A DNA stretch of 64,000 nucleotides from Mesostigma viride (taxonomy: Eukaryota > Streptophyta > Mesostigmatophyceae > Mesostigmatales > Mesostigmataceae): assembly GCA_009746045.1 (NCBI GenBank), contig RPFO01000090.1:167649-231648 (forward strand). The letters are read 5' to 3'. The notes under the pieces were generated by a model. The model was not told the DNA's origin. It was given only the letters and a program-made list of their open reading frames with translations, and ran no database searches. The position numbers and the translations under genes are program-made. Shown one piece after another: positions 4,647-64,000 of this stretch; the first letter of the stretch is position 1; each line of letters opens with the position of its first letter.

Positions 4647-7480
4647 AAAAAAAATTAAATTAAATTAAATTAAATTATAACATGCCTCCGTGGGGAGGTC
4701 ATGTAGCACATATTCCATGATGGATGGGGTGGAGGAAGCCGCGTGGTCGAACTATACTAACGCTAGGCTATCTAGAAAATCCTAACTACACTACTCATCA
4801 AAACGCCTCCTCCGCTTGGGGGGAGGTGGCTTGCCCACAGGGTCGGGCGTGTGCGCCTTGACAATCTTCTTCCACCGCGTCTTGTCCTGCATGACAGTCC
4901 AAAGACGGGAGAGAGAGTGTATGCGGTGCTCAAACTGGGCTGGGACCACTAGGTCGTCCAGCAACATCTGAACGTAGTTGGTGACAGGTTTCCCTACCCT
5001 TTTGGGAATGTCCGCGGGGCCAGGCCAGGTCAGAATATGCCGCCCTGGCTGGCCAAGCCGCTGGGGGCCGGCCAGACCAAGGGTGGTGTCGACCTGGCTA
5101 GTGCGGGCAAGGTGTCCTACAAATGCTATCCTACGCTGCCTAATCTCGTCCGAAACACGAGGCATGCCATGATACAAAGACTCTGATGACGGACGCTCGG
5201 AAAAACCTACGTTAAGGACCTGCCGGAGCATCCTGTAAACTGTGCCGTCGAGCCGAGCTGCCAGTTTGGGTGGGAGGGTCCACGCCTCGGCGCCATACGT
5301 GAGCACCGTGAGGACGAGGACCTTGAAGAGCATGCGTTTGCGGTGCCCGTCCAGGCCCTTCGAGCGCCAGTAAGGTGTGAGCGAACGGAGCTTGGCCCAG
5401 GCGAGGGCGATGCGGGTGTCCACATCGTCGTCGGTGTCAGGAAGCCAGCTCCCCAACAGCTTGAAGCGGTCGCGGAACGGGACCTCCGTCCCGTCGAGCA
5501 GGCGCGGCAGCGGTGGTTTACTGGAGGCCCCTATCACCATCGCCTCAGTCTTGACACTAATCTCCAACCCCACCGCCCGCGCCTCCAGGCCCAGGCAGTC
5601 CAGCCAGGTCTGAATGTGCTCGGGGCTCTCGATGAGGGTGGTATCATCCGCATAAATCAGGTCGGCAAGGCGGTACCCCGGTCTAACCCCGCCGTGCTCT
5701 TTCACGTTAAGGATGTCCAAGCCTGGCTCGAACCCCTTAAGAGCAGTAAAGCGCGCACGTGCCCGGCGCATGACGTGATCCACGACAATAATGAACAGGT
5801 ATGGGGACAGGACACAACCTTGCCACACCCCGTGGTGAAGGGGGAATGGTGGAGTGGTGCCCTCCGCAGTCCGCACTACTGCCTGTGAGCCCTCATACAG
5901 TCGGCGAATGGCAGCAATAAACGCAGGTGGTACCCGATCCAGAGCTAGGATGGCCCAAAGAGCCTCCCAGAGAACCGTGTCAAAGGCCTTGATATAGTCA
6001 ACAAAAATGAAGACCAGCGGCAAACTGTCAGGGGGAAGTCGACGCACCTCCTCCATCAACCGGCGCGCGACAAACACAGCCATGACAGTGTTACGACCAC
6101 TACGGAAACCCATCTGAGACTCACCCAGGTGTGGGTCCAGCGCGGCGCGGAGCCTGTGCAGCATCATGCGCATGAAGACCTTCAGCGCGGCGCTCTGGAG
6201 GCAGACACCCCGGTAGTTGCCGGGGTCAGCAGCAGAGCCCTTCTTGTACAGCATGACGCGGATGGCCGTCTGCCACTCAGCAGGCGGAGGCTCGTCAGAG
6301 AGCAGGACACGGTTGCAGAACGCCAGCAGAAGATCCCTAACCGCCAGATCAGGGGTCTTCAGCAGCTCAGCAGAAAGGTGGTCGGCACCGACCGCTGCAT
6401 CGTACCGCAGGCGAGCAAGGGCGCCGTCCAATTCCTCCAAAGTGAAGGGGGGACAACGTCGTCAGTGGCAAGGCGGCCCTCCTGCAAGGCGGGGACTTGG
6501 TAGTCCGCGGCCGAGGAGGGGGGCGCCGGTGGCGGCGGGGGTCCGGCGACCCCGAGGCGGGCGGCCGTCTCGGGGTGCAGCGGCGGGGGGGGGGCGCGAG
6601 CCCCACCGGTCAAGGAAACATTGTGGGCCAACCAGCGGTCAAGGCTTACCGGCGCCGTGCCGTCCCCCGTATGCTCCACCGGGGTGCGCTGCCGCCGGCC
6701 GCCGAGCCGGTCGAGGTGGTACCACATGTCCTTGCCCTGGTTGCGGGCCTGGCAGGCCTTGGCATCCGCGATGCACTGGGCCGCCTCCGCGTCCTGAGCG
6801 TGCGCGTAGGCCTCCACAAGGGCGGCCTTGAGCGATGGTTTCTGCAGCGGGTCCCGGTTACGCTTGAGGCGGTGCCGGGCGGCCAAGACCTTGGGGTCCT
6901 GGCGGTAGAGCGGGCCGGGGCGGCGGCGGGGCATGACCGGCAGGTGCCGGGCCGCCAGCAACGGGGCACGGGCCGCAAAGCCCGCAAAAACGGCTGCGTT
7001 GGGGGCACCATTGTCCAGCTTGTCGACGTCCGCCCGGGCGTCCAGTGCCGACAGGTACTTCCGTCGGCACCAGTTCCGCTCGTGCTCGGCGTCCGTCCAG
7101 TCCTCAGGATCTCCCTTGACCGGACGTAGAGCAGACCAGTCAGGGCGGACCACTGTGGCGCGGCGCGTGGGGACGTGGAACCGGAGCCGAAGGGTCGCGC
7201 GCACCAACCGGTGATCAGAGCACACCGTGGGCGTGTCAAACACTCGGGCGTCCAGAACCGAGGTACACCTGGGCTGCCGTACCACCACATAGTCCAGACA
7301 GGCCTGACGGCCGTTAGGGCCACGAAAAGTGACCAAGTCCTGTGAGGGACGTTGGAATTGACAGTTGACAGCAACCATCCCGCTATCCCGCAAAAAGGCA
7401 GAGAAAAGGGGAGTATTGGCGTTAGCTTCCGTGTCAGCAGGCGCAAACACGGAGTATAAATCGTGGACGTGCATAACGTG
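4647..7480 (-). mobile_element. 5'-truncated APE-type non-LTR retrotransposon
   Basis: Read on the minus strand this holds the C-terminal half of an APE-type endonuclease, a reverse transcriptase, a short 3' UTR and a tail of ATTTA-type repeats at about 4647-4680. The endonuclease begins mid-domain near 7480, which fits the 5' truncation usual for target-primed reverse transcription. I could not find a clean target-site duplication. A 221-bp relative that keeps only the 3' end lies at 31116-31336. It shares the C-terminal motif PVGKPP and the sequence TTATAACATGCCTCCG (antisense) next to the tail. Confidence 0.85.
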
Positions 7481-40902: not shown

Positions 40903-41244
40903 TCCTCTTCGTCTCATCGCGCGTCGGCGCATCGCAATTTTCGATCCGACGCAAAATTAACCCGGCGAACACACCGGTTTTGATTCATACCGGTGCAGGT
41001 CCGGCTCACACGCCGGAAATGGAGGATCCTGAGTTTACATATGAGTACTGCGATTTCCGGGGCCTCGACTACTGAATAAGTCGGCCATTTTTTTTTCCAG
41101 TGCTCGTCGGCGCTTAGTCGATTTTTCAGCGGCGTTTCGCGGGGGGCGGCGGCGACACCGGTGCAGGCGGCATTCGTCGACAGTTGTACATACTTTCTTT
41201 TGCTGCTTTACTCTGGTGTTTGCTAAGACAGCTTGTTGTACATC

Positions 41245-42236
41245 ATGGCGGACGGGCGCCGTAGCAAGGGTGCTCCAGCCAGTGGTAATAATGGAGGTGC
41301 AGGTAGTGGGACCGCCCATGTAGATGACGTGGGGGTTACCGGCGAGATTACCAATGTACCTATTAATAATAATACACATGCTGTCTCTGGATATGATCTC
41401 ACCACCCAGGGTCTACTTATTGTTAATCAACTGCAACCTGTCACGTCAGACTCAAAGCCAAAGCAGGCTGAGGAGTTTGTGGAGGGGCTAGAGGGGTTTC
41501 CAAGCTTGTACGGTGGTACAAACTATTATCAGATCTGGATTGGCAGCCAGACTTTTGGCAAGTGTACAGATCAGATAAAGGACCTCACTAGAGAGTGCAA
41601 GAAGGCCAACAAGGCCTGGGCACTCTACGTGGCAGAACTAAGAGAGCTGCTAGAGGATCAACGGAAGAAGGTGGGGATCCATTGGCAGGATAAATACCAA
41701 GGGTGGGAGGTGAAAGGAGACCTTATCCAGAACTTCCTTAACTATTGTAAAATGGTTGAGGAGGGCAGGGCTCATGGCTTTAATGTTGCTGACAACATAG
41801 CCCTGACAAACTGGCTCAAGGTTTCTGGGCTGGACAAGGCAACACGTGGCTCTTTAAAGGTCATGTGTGCCCCACACTCTACCCTGAAGGCCTACAAGGT
41901 CATAATCAAACAAGCACTCGAGGCAGAGGAGCTGTTTGAGGGTGGAGTGCCAGCTGTGAAGGCTACCCACGCAGGTGGGCGTGCCCAGGGGGGCTCCAAG
42001 GCGTCTGAGGCTGACAGAAGCCAAGGAGGACGTGGGGGCAACCACAACAAGCGGAAGGCGAACCATTCACCCGACCCTGACGGGCAATCACATGCCAAGT
42101 CGGTGTTCAGGAGGGTGGGTGCCGGCAAGCCCAGGCAGGGTAACGCGCCTGACAACGGGGGAGGAGGCCAGGGCAAGTCAAAGATCCAGTGCTACCTGTG
42201 CAAGGGGTGGGGGCACATCAAGAAGGAGTGTCCCAG
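41245..42236 (+). CDS. Copia Gag, truncated by insertion
   Basis: About 331 residues are readable from ATG 41245 to the insertion point. The N terminus is Gly/Asn-rich. The central region has the copia Gag helical layout (YYQIWIGSQTF, WVKGD-like repeats, then FLNYCKMVEEGR). The C terminus is basic and ends with a CCHC zinc knuckle, CYLCKGWGHIKKEC. The next codons come from the LARD LTR (RNMPQYA) and a stop. Gag sequence continues after the insertion at 45494 (GFKKTQGQGSNKNN) to a stop at 45609. Protein from this locus would lack only the short basic tail. Confidence 0.78.
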
Positions 42237-42434
42237 TGTCAGGAATATGCCCCAATATGCCTGACAAGTCTAGCACTTACTAATCTAGATAAAGTTCGGG
42301 TAGTCCGTAGTTAAGTCAGAACAACCTACAACGCCAGTATGACTGCGTAGAGCTCATGTTTGGCTACAACTTTGCCACTAGAATCACCTTGATCTGAGCT
42401 CTAGGTAGAAAGTTATGAGTCTTTTCATATATAT

Positions 42435-56841: not shown

Positions 56842-56977
56842 TTAAAAGAAAAGGCTGGGGGAATGGCAATGGCCATTAAAGACATCTGTTCAAGCTTCAA
56901 GCTGGAGTGAAGGACATTTCAAGCTACTTCAAGGGTCCCTGGCAGGGGATGTGATCCCTAAAGAAAAGAAGGGATTG

Positions 56978-57120
56978 TGTCGCGTCTGCGTGCCACAATC
57001 TCCGGCGCCACCATGGCGGCTGGCCACTCAGCTTAATTTGGTAAAACCCAAATGAGCTGAGCTGATGTGCCTGCCTTAACTGCATGCCCTGTGGGGTGGG
57101 CGAGGACCTGTCCCATGATT
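56978..57120. repeat. 143-bp direct repeat, distal copy
   Basis: Same sequence as 58259-58401 (TGTCGCGTCTGCGTGCC to GTCCCATGATT), identical on reading. In minus orientation it is the start of the gypsy LTR unit and stands directly after the proximal LTR sequence. It may be a truncated second LTR, or the two copies may be the short LTRs of a separate small element spanning 56978-58401. Confidence 0.85.
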
Positions 57121-58427
57121 AAAGAAAGGAGGGCTCTCAGCCGAGGACAAGGAACTGTCCCTCGTGCCTGATAACCACCTTATTGCCTCCCCTGCTATAG
57201 AATAATGCTTTCAAAACACATACTTTGCACAGTCTGATGATGAAGCCGCACATGCGGAGTTTATTGAGAAAGTTAATACAATTACAACACGTTGATAGTC
57301 TCAATATCGATGCACTCCATGCTCACGAGCCCGCAGTTAGGCAGCGCTCCATGACATGCTACCGGCCTTGCTCCCAAGGAAAGGGAGAAACACGAAGGCC
57401 ACTAACGAGAGACTCGAAGAGACTACACGCTGCGTGAGAGTCCTCTTCGACTATGAACCAAACCATTCGTCATGCCACACGCATGACACACGCCACACTT
57501 GTCAGTCCAGCCAGGAATGCCAAAACTATCTTGCTGCCTGAACCATGCGAATAGAAACCGCATTCCAGTTGCCGTCCTGGCTTTCTACCACACATGCCAA
57601 CAAAAGCAGGAAGGCATCCCGACAAATCTAAATTGCTACCCTGTTGCCGATCTCATCTCCTAGAGGCTCCGGCATTTCTGTCCCTGGGAATGTCCGACAT
57701 TGAGTCACGTCCAGCAAGGTCGAAGCATAATATCCTTCAGACAATCTGCACGCTCACACCTTGCGTGTGAGTGGCCCAGCAAACATTGCGTCTAATCGTT
57801 CCTTTCTAGAAGAAATCCCTTTTTAGGGCTGCCAGCGATTTCGCATTCATTCCAGCGATCTGGCTCCGCACCGCAAATTGTCCTTTTCCATTTTCTGTCC
57901 AGTCCTCATAACGTTGACCCGCTATTCTACACCACAAAGACACCTGGCCTGTCAATAGCCTCGGCGCTGTTGAAGTCCAGCAGTCCAGCTTCAGCTCCAG
58001 CTGTCCACTAACACGCGTATGATCCTCTCGACGCTGCACACTTGTGCTGCCGTCCGCTCAAGTCAGTGCTGCGCGCCCAGCTGTGCCTGGCCCGGCGCGC
58101 GTGCACGTACACTTTCGTCCGCTCTTATGCTGCAAGTGCTAGTGTCCCCCCCGGTCACTAGCCTTTGTCGAAAATGCGTAGAAGACAAATTCCTTGCGCA
58201 CGTCACCGGTCTTGTGCATAGTGGGCGCCCGGATGACATAGCGCGCGTCCGTGACAGCTGTCGCGTCTGCGTGCCACAATCTCCGGCGCCACCATGGCGG
58301 CTGGCCACTCAGCTTAATTTGGTAAAACCCAAATGAGCTGAGCTGATGTGCCTGCCTTAACTGCATGCCCTGTGGGGTGGGCGAGGACCTGTCCCATGAT
58401 TCCCCCCCTCGCTGGCGACCGGCCCCA
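57121..58427 (-). repeat. Probable 3' LTR region of the gypsy element
   Basis: After the pol stop codon, a polypurine tract (antisense of CCCCCCCTCGC, at 58402-58412) precedes TGGGACAGG at 58397, a plausible LTR start. The region runs through the proximal 143-bp repeat (58259-58401). It carries an AATAAA on the minus strand near 57262, as expected for an LTR with a poly(A) site. The far end of the LTR is not resolved because the 5' LTR is outside the window. Confidence 0.5.
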
Positions 58428-61400
58428 TCACGAAGACAGCGATCGTACCAAGACAAGGGCAGCGGTGACCGCAGTCAAGCTGCGGGAGGTAAACTGCGCA
58501 GCGGTGCACACTGGACAAAACCAATCCCCCTCCGGAATGCTGGTGACCACGGGCTGCAAGCACTGCATGTGCCAACCACAGTTACACTGATCACACAATA
58601 ACATGGACTCCGCCTGATCGACCCGGTGACAAACCTGACACTGGGCGTCCTTGACTCGGCGAGATGTGTGCGGTTGGAGGTCGTGGACCAAATTGGGCAG
58701 TGAGCAGGGACTGAGATTGCTGAGGTTGTCTGTCGTACGGCTCCCGTCGGCGCCCTCCAAAATTGCCACTCCCGATGGTTTGATAGCCACAATGCGCAAA
58801 ATGGTGGGCCCCGCCTCCACATCCAAAGTGTGCTTCAGCTGAGTGCGCAGGAAAACATACTGCCCTGGCCTAAACCGCAGCTGGCGAGCCATGTATGCGC
58901 CCCCCCGGCGCTGAGCGTAACGCAGGGAGTCCCTGTGCTGAGCAATGAACAAGTTGTTCATCGCGATGGGCATGACCTTCTTAAAAGTCTCTGCCCTGGC
59001 CAGCACCTCAACCAAAAATTGCTGAGCGTTGTCGAAGGCCATGGGTTCGGGGTGCGCAACCTGTGCCTCCGTAGGCAAAAGAGGATTACGCCCGAACAGA
59101 AGGAAATACGGGGAGAAGGTAGCGAGAGACTCCTGGGGAGACATGCGATAACCCATGGCAATCCATGCCAACTCGCGATCCCACCTGGCCGACTCCGGCA
59201 CCTGCAGGCTCCACTTGCGCAGCGCCTGCTTGACGGTCTGCACCAATCTCTCAGCCAAACCATTGGCCTGAGGATGCTCCCGAGAAGTGCGACGGTGATC
59301 AATAAGACATCCATCCAGCAACTCCTGGAACTCACCCCTGAACTCACCACCCTGGTCCGTGACTACCTCCGCGGGAGCCCCAAACCTGGTGATGATGTCT
59401 GCAAAATGCTTCGCTGTGGTAGCGGCATGCTTGTCAGCAATGGGGATCAACTCAACCCATTTGCTAAAGCTCTCCACGCATACCATGACATAGAGGTTGC
59501 CGTCAGGGCTCTCCTGAAACGGCCCGCACAGATCGACGTGCCAGCGATAAAACAAGCCCTTGATGGGAAGCGACATCAGCTCCTTGGCACCATGATCTGC
59601 GCTAAAGTTAGCCTTGGTTCGAGCACACGGGACACAGCTGGCCACTACCTGGGCCACTGTGTGTCGCATGTTATTCCACCAATAGCTGGTCCGTACGAGG
59701 CTGAGCGTGCGATTGCCACCCAAGTGACCATACCGCTCGTGGTACGCCTGCACTATAGCAACGCGCTTGTCAGGCGGTGGGACGACCACCCTACGCTTGC
59801 CCAACAGCTTGTACAAAACCCCATCTTCCCAACCATAGGTTGCAGCCCTGTGCTGCACCCTGTTCAACTCCGTCGCCTTCTGAGCAGGAGTCCAATCGAC
59901 TGGAGTAGGAGTCAAGACAGCACCCTGCACTTGCTCCAAAACTCGACCATCTAGCCAGATATCAGCGGTGTAGCAATCAGCAAGAGAGCTACGCGCTAAG
60001 AGAGCCTGCACAGCGATCAGCTGCTGCAGAGAAGGATCAATGTCAAAGGACAGAGACCTACCCTCTTCCATAGCGCACACAGCTTTGGATGGCGTGAATG
60101 GCGACGGCCGCACCGGGTCGTCGCTGATGCCGAAGTCCGCCACAGAGTACTCGACACTGCGCCACCACGCCTCCTCCTCATCGTCGGCCGCATACCCAGC
60201 AGCGTTCACAAAGACCACAGAACCCGACGAGCCCTCGGCACCCATGGCCCGGGCTCCAGTGTGGTCAACAGTGGTAGGCATGGCGTATCGGGATAGCACA
60301 TCGGCGTTGACATGGTCCTTGCCGGCCCGATGCACAATGGTCATGTGGTACTCCTGGATAATCATGGCCCATCGGGCGAGCTTACCCGTCAGGTTGGTGT
60401 TGGTCATTAGCCACTGAAGCGGCTGGTGGTCTGTCACCAGAGTAAACACGCGCCCAACTAAATACGGGCGAAAGTGCTTGATGGCCCACACCACAGCCAG
60501 TGCCTCCCCCTCATAGGAAGAATACCGGCTCTCCGCTGGGTTGTTGCTGCGACTAGCATAAGCAATAACGTGCTCGCGCCCATCACCATCCTTTTGCGCC
60601 AAGACCGCACCCAGTCCTACCTTGGACCAGTCGGTATATAACACAAACGGCAAAGCATAGTCAGGGGCGCGCAGAATCGGGGCCGACGTGAGCTCCTGCT
60701 TGATTGTCTCGATGGCGCGTTGCTGTGCGGGACCCCACGCCCACACGCACCCCTTCTTGAGTAACTCGGTCAAGGGCTTCACCTTGCTGCTGAAGTTCTC
60801 AATGTAACCTCGGTAATAGCCAGCCAAACCCAAATACGCCCGCACCCCTGAGACATCCGTGGGTACGGCGGCCTGCACAATGGATTCGACCTTGGCGGCA
60901 TCAGGCGTCCGGCCACCCGGCACAATCTGATGACCAAGGAATGAGAGGGTCCGCTGGGCGAACTTGCACTTCTCAGGGTGCAGCCGCATATTATGCTCCT
61001 CGAGAGCCAAGCGAACCTGCTCCAAGTGCGCCAGGTGCTCCTCAAATGTCGCGCTAAAGACGATTACATCATCAATGTAACAAGCGGCGAAAGGAAGACC
61101 TGCAAGCACTTTGTCCATAGCTCGTTGGAAAACAGCACTAGCGTTGCGGTGCCCAAAGGGCATGCGCACCCACTCATACAAATTGCCGCCCCCCCAGAAT
61201 GCAAGCTTCCGCTGATCCTCCGGCGCAACTGCGATCTGATGAAAGCCGCTACGCAGGTCCAGCGAGGACACAAACTTCACATGAGGAGATATCTTATCCA
61301 GGACATCATCCACACGTGGCATGGGGTAACGGTCCACGGGTGTGTGTGCATTCAGCAACCGCAGATCGGTGGCCATGCGCATACCCGTCCATGCCCCGGT

Positions 61401-63830
61401 GATAGCGTCCTTCTTGGGCGCAACGACAACGGCAGCGGCATAGCTGGAGGAAGATTGCCTGATGATACCGGCATCCTCTAACTCCTTGCATTGCTCGGCT
61501 ACAAAATCCAACTCGGCCTGACTCAGGCGATGCTGGCGTCGGAACAAAGGGGTGTCAGTGTCCAATGGAACACGCATGGTCCCACCATTGAAACACCCCA
61601 GTTCATCACTTGTGAAAGCGAAGGCCCCCCTTGCAGTGCCTAGCCACTTTAGCATGGCTGAGCGCTGCGCATCAGAAAGGTGTTCGCCAATAGCCCAGGG
61701 GTGCGTATCCGCGGGATCACCCACAGCTACCGCATGTGCCTCAAGATGCGGCGCCCTAGCCGCATCGTCGTGGAACAAGGAAAAGGCTGCCACGCCTGGT
61801 GTGACACCCACCGCCGGAGCCTCGCGTGCCGCACGGTGTATTACCCGATGCAGCGTGGGCTCGCCGGCCAGCACGGTGCTGGTCAGCAGGGCGGTCATGA
61901 GAATGATAGTCCACACCTGTCGCAGACGCCACCCCCATGCTGATGAAGTCCCCGTCGCTGCAGGGCGCTTCAGTTTGGCTGCGCGCGCCTCAACCTGCTG
62001 AGGCGGATTGGCTGGGGACGCCCCCCCAGACTGGCGCACGGCAACCGATGCAAGCAGCACATACCCGACCTGCAACACCGACATAGCCTGGCCTATCAAA
62101 GACCAGCGCTCACTCTCGAGCACGCCCGGCAGCGCCGAGGCCCCGACATGAAAACCCATGCTGGCCTCACGAAATTCTGCGGGTGGCTGCACCAACAGAC
62201 CGGTGGTAGTGTCCCAAACGAGACCCTTACCCCGATCACGGTATGCTGTCGACCCTTGGTAACTGACCAGGGTCGGCAGTGCACACATGGGGCTCCCGAC
62301 CCGGTTGACGCGTGCATACGGTGGGCGATCCTCGCTATCCACCTTCTGCGTGACTAGGTGGGAAGGCAATGCTACCTCCGCAGACACACTCGGATGCTGC
62401 CTTGCTACGGCCCCCAAGACCGCCTGCACATCGGTCGCACACGCCACGTTGGTCCAATAGGCACGCAAACGATGCGTGAGCCCACCCAGCCCTGCGTTGT
62501 CACACACGATGGGCTCCCCCAGGAGTGCCACGATTGTAGCCCAGTCCTCCCGCACCGCCTGATGTGGGCTGTCACCCGCCACAACGTTCTCAAACAGATA
62601 CGCAGGCGGATGGGGCTGACGCGACTGCAACAGTCCCACCACACGCAACAGTTCCCAGAACAGCGCGCTACGCGGATCGGCTAGCCCCCGCCCTTGCCCT
62701 GCCTGGCTCAGGCCCTGGCACTCCCAACCCGCAATTACCAAGTCGATGGCATGATGCCTGCGCAACAACTGCTGCACCTGCACCTCACCGATGGCTCGGA
62801 TATCTTGAGGACATTCCCCAAACGGGTCACGCCATGCTGATGGCGGAAACTGCGCGGGATACTCTCGCGACAACACGCCACAGTGACTGAAGTACACCTG
62901 ACGCGCCTTGTGCGATGGCTCTACCGCGATGAGTTTACGGCACACGCCGCCTGCGGCCAAAAAGCCTGCAATGCCCCCTCCGATCCCCGCAAACAGTTCC
63001 AACACTACCGCACCCTTGGCAAAATCAGGGGCCTGCGGTAAGATTGCAGCAGAAAAATTACCTTGGGCCTCCGAGACACCCGGTTGCAGCAAAGTGAGGC
63101 CATGGCTGGCCATCTGAGGAATGGTGATGACGGCTTCAGTTACCCGCTTGCGCATAGCCAGCTGCCGCGTGGACGTCACAGCATCCAGCGACCACTGCGT
63201 GCGCATCTTGGCAATGCTCGCCGTTGGCTGGGGCAGCACCGTCCGATGCTTGTCCCACGCCGATGAGCCCGCCGCCCGTACCTCCACCATGCTGACCTCC
63301 ACCACGCCCGCAGCCGCGGAAGGGTTGAGGCGTGCAGCCCCGGCTGAAGAACTGAAGCATGAGACCGGCACGCTGGCCCGCTTCAGGCCAGCCCCATCCC
63401 AATCAGGGATGTAAGATGCCTCCTCCGCCCTATAGTCCACCTGAACCATGGCGCGAGCAAGGACATCCACCCCGAGTAGTGCGGAATATCCACACTTGTT
63501 GACCACCAGCGCATACGCGGACACGGTGGTCATGCTAGAGGCGCGCAACGGATTGAAAATCACGTTGACTTTAACCGCCGTCATAGCGTACGGCTTACTA
63601 GCCGGACCCTGCCAACCTGACACAGACACGGGGCTTTCCACTAAGCCACCGTTCTCGTAGGTCAGGTTCAGCATGGTGGCCAAGTCCGTGCTGATGACTA
63701 GCGGCTGAGCACCGCTATCAAGCTTGACTGCGCCAACCAACGGACATGTCACCATGTCGCTCCATACATCTCCACAGGCTCCAACTGCTTGGAACGCCAT
63801 GGACGGCTCACCATTGGGGTATGGAACCAC
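58428..63830 (-). CDS. Gypsy Pol: protease-C5 methyltransferase-RT-RNase H-integrase-PHD
   Basis: One 1800-residue frame (first codon shown is GTG; the frame is open to a stop at 63852). Domains: retropepsin (VKLDSGA 35-41; ALLGVDVL 117-124). Cytosine-5 DNA methyltransferase about 272-600: motif I LELFAGIGGG 277-286, motif IV GWECQGLSQAG with Cys371, motif VI ENV 414-416, motif VIII HRLRAYWTN 453-461, motif X-like LIGQAMSV 578-585. A hydrophobic stretch follows at 639-655. RT about 745-1000 with YIDD 918-921. RNase H with Asp1067, Glu near 1107-1109, Asp1134 and NADVLSR. Integrase: H1364, H1369, C1399, C1402, then D1433, D1492, E1527 (D,D-34-E spacing). PHD Cys4-His-Cys3 from C1731 to C1775. 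All catalytic residues I can check are present except that motif IV reads ECQ for PCQ. Confidence 0.93.
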   Translation of the reverse strand: MVPYPNGEPSMAFQAVGACGDVWSDMVTCPLVGAVKLDSGAQPLVISTDLATMLNLTYENGGLVESPVSVSGWQGPASKPYAMTAVKVNVIFNPLRASSMTTVSAYALVVNKCGYSALLGVDVLARAMVQVDYRAEEASYIPDWDGAGLKRASVPVSCFSSSAGAARLNPSAAAGVVEVSMVEVRAAGSSAWDKHRTVLPQPTASIAKMRTQWSLDAVTSTRQLAMRKRVTEAVITIPQMASHGLTLLQPGVSEAQGNFSAAILPQAPDFAKGAVVLELFAGIGGGIAGFLAAGGVCRKLIAVEPSHKARQVYFSHCGVLSREYPAQFPPSAWRDPFGECPQDIRAIGEVQVQQLLRRHHAIDLVIAGWECQGLSQAGQGRGLADPRSALFWELLRVVGLLQSRQPHPPAYLFENVVAGDSPHQAVREDWATIVALLGEPIVCDNAGLGGLTHRLRAYWTNVACATDVQAVLGAVARQHPSVSAEVALPSHLVTQKVDSEDRPPYARVNRVGSPMCALPTLVSYQGSTAYRDRGKGLVWDTTTGLLVQPPAEFREASMGFHVGASALPGVLESERWSLIGQAMSVLQVGYVLLASVAVRQSGGASPANPPQQVEARAAKLKRPAATGTSSAWGWRLRQVWTIILMTALLTSTVLAGEPTLHRVIHRAAREAPAVGVTPGVAAFSLFHDDAARAPHLEAHAVAVGDPADTHPWAIGEHLSDAQRSAMLKWLGTARGAFAFTSDELGCFNGGTMRVPLDTDTPLFRRQHRLSQAELDFVAEQCKELEDAGIIRQSSSSYAAAVVVAPKKDAITGAWTGMRMATDLRLLNAHTPVDRYPMPRVDDVLDKISPHVKFVSSLDLRSGFHQIAVAPEDQRKLAFWGGGNLYEWVRMPFGHRNASAVFQRAMDKVLAGLPFAACYIDDVIVFSATFEEHLAHLEQVRLALEEHNMRLHPEKCKFAQRTLSFLGHQIVPGGRTPDAAKVESIVQAAVPTDVSGVRAYLGLAGYYRGYIENFSSKVKPLTELLKKGCVWAWGPAQQRAIETIKQELTSAPILRAPDYALPFVLYTDWSKVGLGAVLAQKDGDGREHVIAYASRSNNPAESRYSSYEGEALAVVWAIKHFRPYLVGRVFTLVTDHQPLQWLMTNTNLTGKLARWAMIIQEYHMTIVHRAGKDHVNADVLSRYAMPTTVDHTGARAMGAEGSSGSVVFVNAAGYAADDEEEAWWRSVEYSVADFGISDDPVRPSPFTPSKAVCAMEEGRSLSFDIDPSLQQLIAVQALLARSSLADCYTADIWLDGRVLEQVQGAVLTPTPVDWTPAQKATELNRVQHRAATYGWEDGVLYKLLGKRRVVVPPPDKRVAIVQAYHERYGHLGGNRTLSLVRTSYWWNNMRHTVAQVVASCVPCARTKANFSADHGAKELMSLPIKGLFYRWHVDLCGPFQESPDGNLYVMVCVESFSKWVELIPIADKHAATTAKHFADIITRFGAPAEVVTDQGGEFRGEFQELLDGCLIDHRRTSREHPQANGLAERLVQTVKQALRKWSLQVPESARWDRELAWIAMGYRMSPQESLATFSPYFLLFGRNPLLPTEAQVAHPEPMAFDNAQQFLVEVLARAETFKKVMPIAMNNLFIAQHRDSLRYAQRRGGAYMARQLRFRPGQYVFLRTQLKHTLDVEAGPTILRIVAIKPSGVAILEGADGSRTTDNLSNLSPCSLPNLVHDLQPHTSRRVKDAQCQVCHRVDQAESMLLCDQCNCGWHMQCLQPVVTSIPEGDWFCPVCTAAQFTSRSLTAVTAALVLVRSLSS

Positions 63831-64000
63831 CGTGGGAACCTGGGGACTGCACTAGTGCGCTGCTGGCTACTTGTGCTGACCACTCCCGCTTGCACCACGG
63901 GCACTGCGGCTTCTACCGGCTGGCGCCCGTAGGTGACGGACTCAGAATTGCGCAAGGTGCGCACATCATGCCCATCTGCGAACAACTGGATCTCGGACAC
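63749..64000 (-). CDS. C-terminal part of the gypsy Gag (partial)
   Basis: An open frame enters from the right edge and ends at 63749. It is hydrophilic with a few Arg/Ser stretches; no zinc knuckle lies in the visible part. It overlaps the pol frame by about 100 nt (63749-63851), and pol is in the -1 frame relative to it. That arrangement is consistent with pol being made by -1 frameshifting, though an independent start is possible. Confidence 0.45.
   Translation of the reverse strand: MSEIQLFADGHDVRTLRNSESVTYGRQPVEAAVPVVQAGVVSTSSQQRTSAVPRFPRWFHTPMVSRPWRSKQLEPVEMYGATW

Follow-up and report, generated by a model that had tools for sequence, protein, structure and literature searches.

A Ty3/Gypsy-type retrotransposon of Mesostigma viride with a DNMT3-like methyltransferase, a PHD finger and split repeats

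Retrotransposons carrying a host-type silencing enzyme have been reported from dinoflagellates and a charophyte; the accessible text of that study describes such LINE and DIRS elements in dinoflagellates and a Klebsormidium Gypsy element with a Dnmt3 within Pol, and leaves the role of the enzyme unsettled (de Mendoza et al. 2018, PMC5890265). A 64,000-nucleotide stretch of the streptophyte alga Mesostigma viride (assembly GCA_009746045.1, contig RPFO01000090.1, positions 167,649 to 231,648 of the forward strand; hereafter the window) contains a long frame in which an earlier note, made from the sequence alone, recognised a Gypsy pol with a cytosine-5 (C5) methyltransferase between retropepsin and reverse transcriptase, and named dinoflagellates and Klebsormidium as precedents, in agreement with the accessible text of that study (PMC5890265). 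The locus raises the question of what kind of element bears this enzyme, how such an element replicates and inserts itself, and what the methyltransferase may do.

From its N-terminus, the pol protein of the window copy consists of a retropepsin-like domain, a C5 methyltransferase, reverse transcriptase, RNase H, integrase and a PHD finger (Table 1). The frame placed by the earlier note at 58428..63830 is real and uninterrupted, its extent being 58428-63851 on the reverse strand, and the position of the methyltransferase between protease and reverse transcriptase in one frame is borne out by the Pfam domains, by Ty3 as the best match of the reverse transcriptase/RNase H among solved structures (E 7.5e-58), and by the constraint described below. 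Pfam searches recovered RVT_1, RT_RNaseH, rve and DNA_methylase, while the retropepsin is represented by a weak match together with an LDSG motif. D1440, D1499 and E1534, the last just beyond the Pfam match, are likely the catalytic residues of the integrase. On sequence criteria, namely the protease, reverse transcriptase, RNase H and integrase order, the Ty3-type reverse transcriptase/RNase H and an H2C2 plus DDE integrase, the element is of Ty3/Gypsy type. The earlier description lacked three features: the PHD finger, split repeats and a frame break in the window copy. On the 3' side the element runs past pol to 56978, with a polypurine tract after the stop codon followed by repeats B1-A2-B2, which were delimited by self-comparison; its 5' side lies outside the window.

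Table 1. Features of the window copy, numbered from the first base of the window, with residues numbered along the 1807-aa pol frame.
Feature	Position	Strand	Residues	Remarks
pol frame, 1807 aa	58428..63851	-		open reading frame; 2074 aa in 39/109 copies; frame break 5'
Retropepsin-like domain	63465..63725	-		weak Pfam match PF13650, E 0.088, below cut-off
LDSG motif of retropepsin-like domain	63705-63722	-	44-49	
C5 cytosine methyltransferase, DNMT3-like	62016..63011	-	281-612	Pfam, motifs, profiles
Methyltransferase motif I			282-293	VVLELFAGIGGG
Methyltransferase motif II			308-313	IAVEPS
Methyltransferase motif IV			372-382	VIAGWECQGLS
Methyltransferase motif VI			419-424	LFENVV
Methyltransferase motif VIII			456-468	GGLTHRLRAYWTN
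Methyltransferase motif IX			524-534	ALPTLVSYQGS
Methyltransferase motif X			582-591	RWSLIGQAMS
Reverse transcriptase	60924..61418	-	812-976	RVT_1, E 1.3e-27
YIDD of reverse transcriptase	61068-61079	-		
RNase H	60348..60662	-	1064-1168	RT_RNaseH, E 1.9e-38
Integrase H2C2 zinc-binding domain	59610..59780	-	1358-1414	Integrase_H2C2, E 7.7e-17
Integrase core	59271..59549	-	1435-1527	rve, E 1.2e-10
PHD finger	58506..58640	-	1738-1782	Pfam PHD, E 8.7e-9
Polypurine tract	58402..58410	-		immediately 5' of B1
Repeat B1, 143 bp	58259..58401	-		
Repeat A2, 1138 bp	57121..58258	-		A1 stands 5' of gag in other copies
Repeat B2, 143 bp	56978..57120	-		identical to B1; element 3' end (...GCGACA)
Putative 3' copy of 4-bp target duplication	56974..56977	-		prediction; CAAT on element strand

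The assembly (440 Mb, 2243 contigs) was searched with 378 residues of the methyltransferase, and 109 of 538 candidates were scored, making the copy count a lower bound. There are at least 109 full-length matches, none with an internal stop; 97 of them share the top score and 12 score slightly lower. This is a recently amplified, young family with near-identical methyltransferase copies. The frame around the methyltransferase measures 2074 aa in 39 of the 109, 1042 aa in 21, 1195 aa in 10 and 1807 aa in three, the window copy included. The window pol breaks approximately 267 codons downstream of the start of the 2074-aa frame seen in other copies, 5' of the protease, yet these frame lengths show that intact copies exist. 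The methyltransferase, which the earlier note called intact, is open and constrained. The 1042-aa and 1195-aa frames recur with the methyltransferase open, as if frame-broken copies had been amplified in trans. Comparison of window positions 56978-63851 with copy L023 on contig C111, which has the same 3' flank and carries a tandem unit upstream, gave a single gap and no mismatch across 6420 bases; these are one place on two contigs or two alleles, and the frame break could be allelic or an assembly error.

In L024, a copy with the 2074-residue pol, pol is preceded by a gag-like frame of 615 aa, and the two frames share 184 bases. The gag-like frame returned no Pfam match, and a CCHC knuckle at the pol start scored just under the cut-off. 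L024, L014 and L017 all have pol in frame -1 with respect to the gag-like frame. Rfam gave no match in the window and seven loci, and ARAGORN no tRNA within the window. Elsewhere in the window there are another reverse transcriptase frame (4794-6461, reverse strand; RVT_1 E 5e-24) and a gag-like frame of 345 aa (41227-42261, forward strand) with a weak C-terminal CCHC knuckle (E 0.0047). Family B comprises five copies that are alike (L012-L014, L016 and L017), with a pol 66.8% identical over residues 193-1792 and the same order of methyltransferase, reverse transcriptase, RNase H, integrase and PHD finger, the protease part being encoded in the frame upstream. Two more copies belong with it: L015, with 63.6% identity across residues 3-1792, and L019, which has an internal deletion. 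A third family is represented by L022, whose methyltransferase is 71% identical.

Within the span of residues 272-600 that had been assigned to the enzyme, Pfam DNA_methylase (PF00145) matches residues 283-423 (E 7.5e-11; profile positions 3-111 of 324, the N-terminal part only). As the earlier note stated, the main motifs stand in canonical, unrearranged order (residues 282-591); motifs VIII-X were picked out by eye. When a profile of five methyltransferases from this genome was compared with solved structures, DNMT3A scored best (E 4.7e-7), ahead of DRM (1.5e-6) and HhaI (6.8e-6), while the single sequence placed DRM first (E 6.8e-5). LFENVVA and the HRxRxFW of motif VIII are common to the element enzyme and DNMT3A. 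We call the enzyme DNMT3-like, an assignment made by profile scores rather than by a tree. Its predicted structure is too poor to use (pLDDT 35). The string RWSLIGQAM also occurs in L001, a dcm-like protein that is not related to it.

Between families A and B the methyltransferase is 0.66 identical, with 0.26, 0.22 and 0.59 substitutions at codon positions 1, 2 and 3 and a dN/dS of 0.116 at a dS of 2.4, where synonymous sites are saturated. The spacers beside it are 0.34 and 0.53 identical. Other domains were compared as identities (reverse transcriptase 0.81, RNase H 0.88, integrase 0.74, PHD finger 0.73), and the protease part barely aligned. Since dN/dS is low and the spacers are less conserved, the methyltransferase appears to be maintained like an enzyme, and the codon comparison shows purifying constraint upon it.

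It is unlikely that the protein has no effect on DNA methylation, acting instead on RNA or as an inactive binding module. Motif IV, usually PCQ in C5 methyltransferases, reads ECQ here (WECQ in five of five sequences from three families), which would suit such a role, as would the lack of CpG depletion relative to most of the window: observed/expected CpG is 0.81 in the element, against 0.85, 0.84 and 0.61 in three stretches of the window. A loss of CpG, such as self-methylation might have left behind, is not seen. Between L024 and L027, which are not independent copies, 13 of 20 transitions fall at CpG, TpG or CpA sites. The Klebsormidium enzyme showed no detectable activity in yeast, a result its authors regard as inconclusive, but de novo CG methylation in yeast is described for two enzymes of SymbioDIRS, according to the accessible text (PMC5890265). 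Further against a loss of activity, the catalytic-motif residues C, ENV and HRxR are invariant in five sequences of the three families. Methylation of the cDNA or circle was proposed for SymbioDIRS by de Mendoza et al. in the text available (PMC5890265), and by analogy our best guess is that the enzyme of this element would methylate its cDNA or circle.

No tblastn match to the element methyltransferase was found at E 0.01 in the host DNMT1 gene (L031) or in L030, L002 and L003. The DNMT1 gene is recognised by an RFD above and a BAH slightly below cut-off; its score is approximately 980 bits with four DNMT1 chains 1507-1574 aa long, a length that fits Arabidopsis MET1, and 472-494 with a group of shorter DNMT1 chains, a pattern suggestive of a green-lineage host. 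Relatives were sought in viral and prokaryote collections, where one weak dcm-like match appeared (L001), and profile scans confirmed no relatives among 48 pattern stretches from genome contigs and 30 from viral contigs. The assembly also contains, at 10 places with equal score (L003-L009 and other contigs), a separate dcm-like C5 methyltransferase gene of 364 aa. A neighbouring frame with the string MLVNTDDLPE accompanies both this gene (L003) and a related one (L002), and the 364-aa gene has the appearance of a DNA element, mobile or viral. More repeated methyltransferase matches (C67, C329, C571 and others; profile 2-178, 313-aa frames, 148.7 bits) are distinct from both the element enzyme and the 364-aa gene.

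The PHD finger is closest to those of BAZ2B, Lid, BAZ2A, CHD4 and ATXR5, most of which read histone H3 unmodified at K4. Chromoviruses, the Ty3/Gypsy elements with a C-terminal chromodomain, likewise have a histone-reader domain after the integrase in a Gypsy pol; here a PHD finger replaces the chromodomain, and a methyltransferase and split repeats are present. By analogy, the PHD finger may steer integration, as the chromodomain does in those elements.

Fuller copies have the structure A-gag-pol-B-A-B, a DIRS-like repeat order combined with a DDE integrase. The order A...B-A-B is found in L014, L017 and L019 (a copy with an internal deletion), none of which has a B ahead of A1; two copies read A-gag-pol-B only (L025 of family A and L016 of family B), and L028 has an A2 without a following B within the 2.1 kb read. 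With A at the 5' end and B-A-B or B at the 3' end, insertions lack identical LTRs at their two ends, as would be expected if the LTR (B+A) were split by insertion. The insertion ends are TGT...ACA (TGTC and GACA). In the window copy, L024, L014 and L017 the polypurine tract is flush with B1; the first bases after A1 are not TGG, which was looked for as a tRNA-type primer site.

Target duplications of 4 bp flank nine of the 11 copies readable at both ends: CTTG (L014), GGCC (L017), AACG (L019), GGTT (L027), GGGG (the C133 pair), CATG (C1391), AGCT (C1579), AACC (L025) and TACT (L016). A matching duplication is absent in C998 and in C1646, where four readable bases differ and the 5' flank is mostly masked. 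The count leaves out L012, whose B2 is truncated, both L015 and L013, in which the 5' end is disrupted or was not located, and also L023, L026, L028, L029 and the window copy.

The junctions between repeats are informative. Two bases, GC, are kept between GACA and TGTC at the B1/A2 junction and absent from the outer ends, as if the integrase trims two bases; in family B this junction of B with A is near-palindromic (CGCGACA-GC-TGTCGCG). At the A2/B2 junction of L015 there are four extra bases, TCCA, identical to the first four bases after its A1. In C133, a unit B-A-gag-pol-B-A stands exactly between the repeats A' and B' of a small element (L032 431-739 plus A' and B'), which has approximately 310 bases between its repeats, its own polypurine tract, the junction CGCGACA-GC-TGTCACG and an A' unrelated to A; it is likely a non-autonomous partner. 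C133 cannot be read as a standard LTR copy (B-A...B-A with host flanks), the flanks belonging to the second, small element, and homologous recombination between A' and A was rejected on finding no BLAST match between them at E 1. In the tandem array of C111 (pol-B-A-gag-pol-B-A-B) a single B-A stands between units, which points to recombination and not to end joining, since the latter alone gives B-A-B-A.

As the best explanation as a whole of the observed anatomy, copy number, constraint, ends, duplications and junctions, we propose with fair confidence a Gypsy element with a DNMT3-like methyltransferase and a PHD finger, autonomous in its fuller copies, whose circular cDNA is cut at the internal B/A junction. 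The transcript would begin within A1 and terminate within A2. Reverse transcription of the LTR type, with priming sites after A and at the polypurine tract in front of B, would yield a linear cDNA B-A-gag-pol-B-A with B+A as its LTR; such a product is expected because B directly adjoins the polypurine tract and A stops where the leader starts. End joining would close this cDNA into a circle. Given a cDNA of that form, A2/B2 corresponds to the LTR-LTR junction, and it is there that L015 carries four leader bases. The integrase would recognise the near-palindromic B/A junction inside the LTR rather than the cDNA ends, drop the two middle bases and insert the element with a 4-bp duplication as A-gag-pol-B-A-B. 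The methyltransferase would most likely act on double-stranded cDNA, either ahead of integration or shortly afterwards, and the PHD finger would probably anchor the integrase on chromatin without H3K4 methylation. Two cDNAs in one circle cut at B'/A' would give the C133 arrangement; from this the circle model predicted TGTC at its far end, at C133:12190, preceded by GGGG, and exactly that was then found (121 bases read). The LTR-LTR junctions and the two-element insertion thus support circular cDNA cut at B/A.

Linear cDNA, as monomers or end-joined concatemers, might instead be cut at two internal B/A sites. Monomers would give the A-gag-pol-B copies, both of which have duplications, and dimers A-gag-pol-B-A-B. 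The A-gag-pol-B form, which is expected of one-LTR circles, also fits linear cDNA cut at both B/A sites. However, six of the nine duplication-bearing insertions fit A...B-A-B (L014, L017, L019 and L027, with C1391 and C1579 by end positions only) and would need a dimer each time, and the mixed C133 insertion would require three joined cDNAs; we consider this route quite unlikely. Very unlikely is a DIRS- or PAT-like route in which the B-A junction templates cDNA closure and a recombinase inserts the circle, the Gypsy-like integrase being incidental. The A-coding-B-A-B order is shared with DIRS elements, and the accessible text describes the K. nitens element in this way (PMC5890265), but no Pfam match to a tyrosine recombinase was found in the window pol, in L024 gag and the N-terminus of its pol, or in L014 gag and pol. 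The 4-bp duplications in nine of 11 copies also speak against it, DIRS elements being, to our knowledge, without target duplication, and the polypurine tract flush with B1 and the leader bases at A2/B2 indicate LTR-type priming. DIRS proper is rejected on the duplications together with the missing recombinase match in these frames. That the methyltransferase is an assembly chimera, as the earlier note had allowed, or a chance match, has negligible probability: the Pfam match is limited to its N-terminal part, but at least 109 full-length copies without internal stop exclude a chimera, and three sister families hold it at the same position in pol.

Returning to the proposed Gypsy element with circular cDNA, its nearest likeness, by description only, is KnitGypsy-Dnmt3 of Klebsormidium nitens, which in the accessible text shares the Gypsy domains, an unrearranged Dnmt3-type methyltransferase within the Pol frame, DIRS-like repeats and purifying selection on the methyltransferase (PMC5890265). 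It differs in that the word 'PHD' is absent from the accessible main text and that K. nitens is said there to have fewer copies than Symbiodinium (PMC5890265), against at least 109 near-identical copies here. The present description also covers the ends of the element, its target duplications and its junctions. SymbioDIRS-Dnmt3 of Symbiodinium, as the accessible text presents it, shares the A-coding-B-A-B repeats and a Dnmt3 in the reverse transcriptase frame, but is a DIRS element with a tyrosine recombinase, whereas the present one is Gypsy with a DDE integrase (PMC5890265). DIRS elements with a Dam-like methylase share split direct repeats and an element-borne methylase, but the enzyme is an adenine methylase and the elements use a tyrosine recombinase, according to the accessible texts (PMC5890265, PMC6338049). 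The literature searched, with few subscription papers and no bioRxiv, held no further report of a C5 methyltransferase in a Gypsy element. As far as searched, this is a rare kind of element that was already known, and the PHD finger, copy number, target duplications and mixed insertion are new.

A broader reading, possible but somewhat doubtful, is that a Gypsy lineage has retargeted its integrase to a junction internal to the LTR and inserts circles, two-element ones included, and that the DNMT3-like enzyme methylates the circle. Two-LTR circles are generally regarded as retroviral dead ends; if the junction evidence holds, this would be a natural DDE-integrase system inserting circular cDNA. 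If the broader reading is true, this element would join DIRS-Dam, SymbioDIRS-Dnmt3 and KnitGypsy-Dnmt3 in a pattern in which methylase capture goes with a naked circle of double-stranded DNA in the life cycle, with SymbioLINE-Dnmt as an exception, and methylation would label the circle as self or hold it silent, which offers a testable reason for methylases and split repeats occurring together. With a young family of at least 109 near-identical methyltransferase copies, expression and the methylation of new copies and episomes are testable now.
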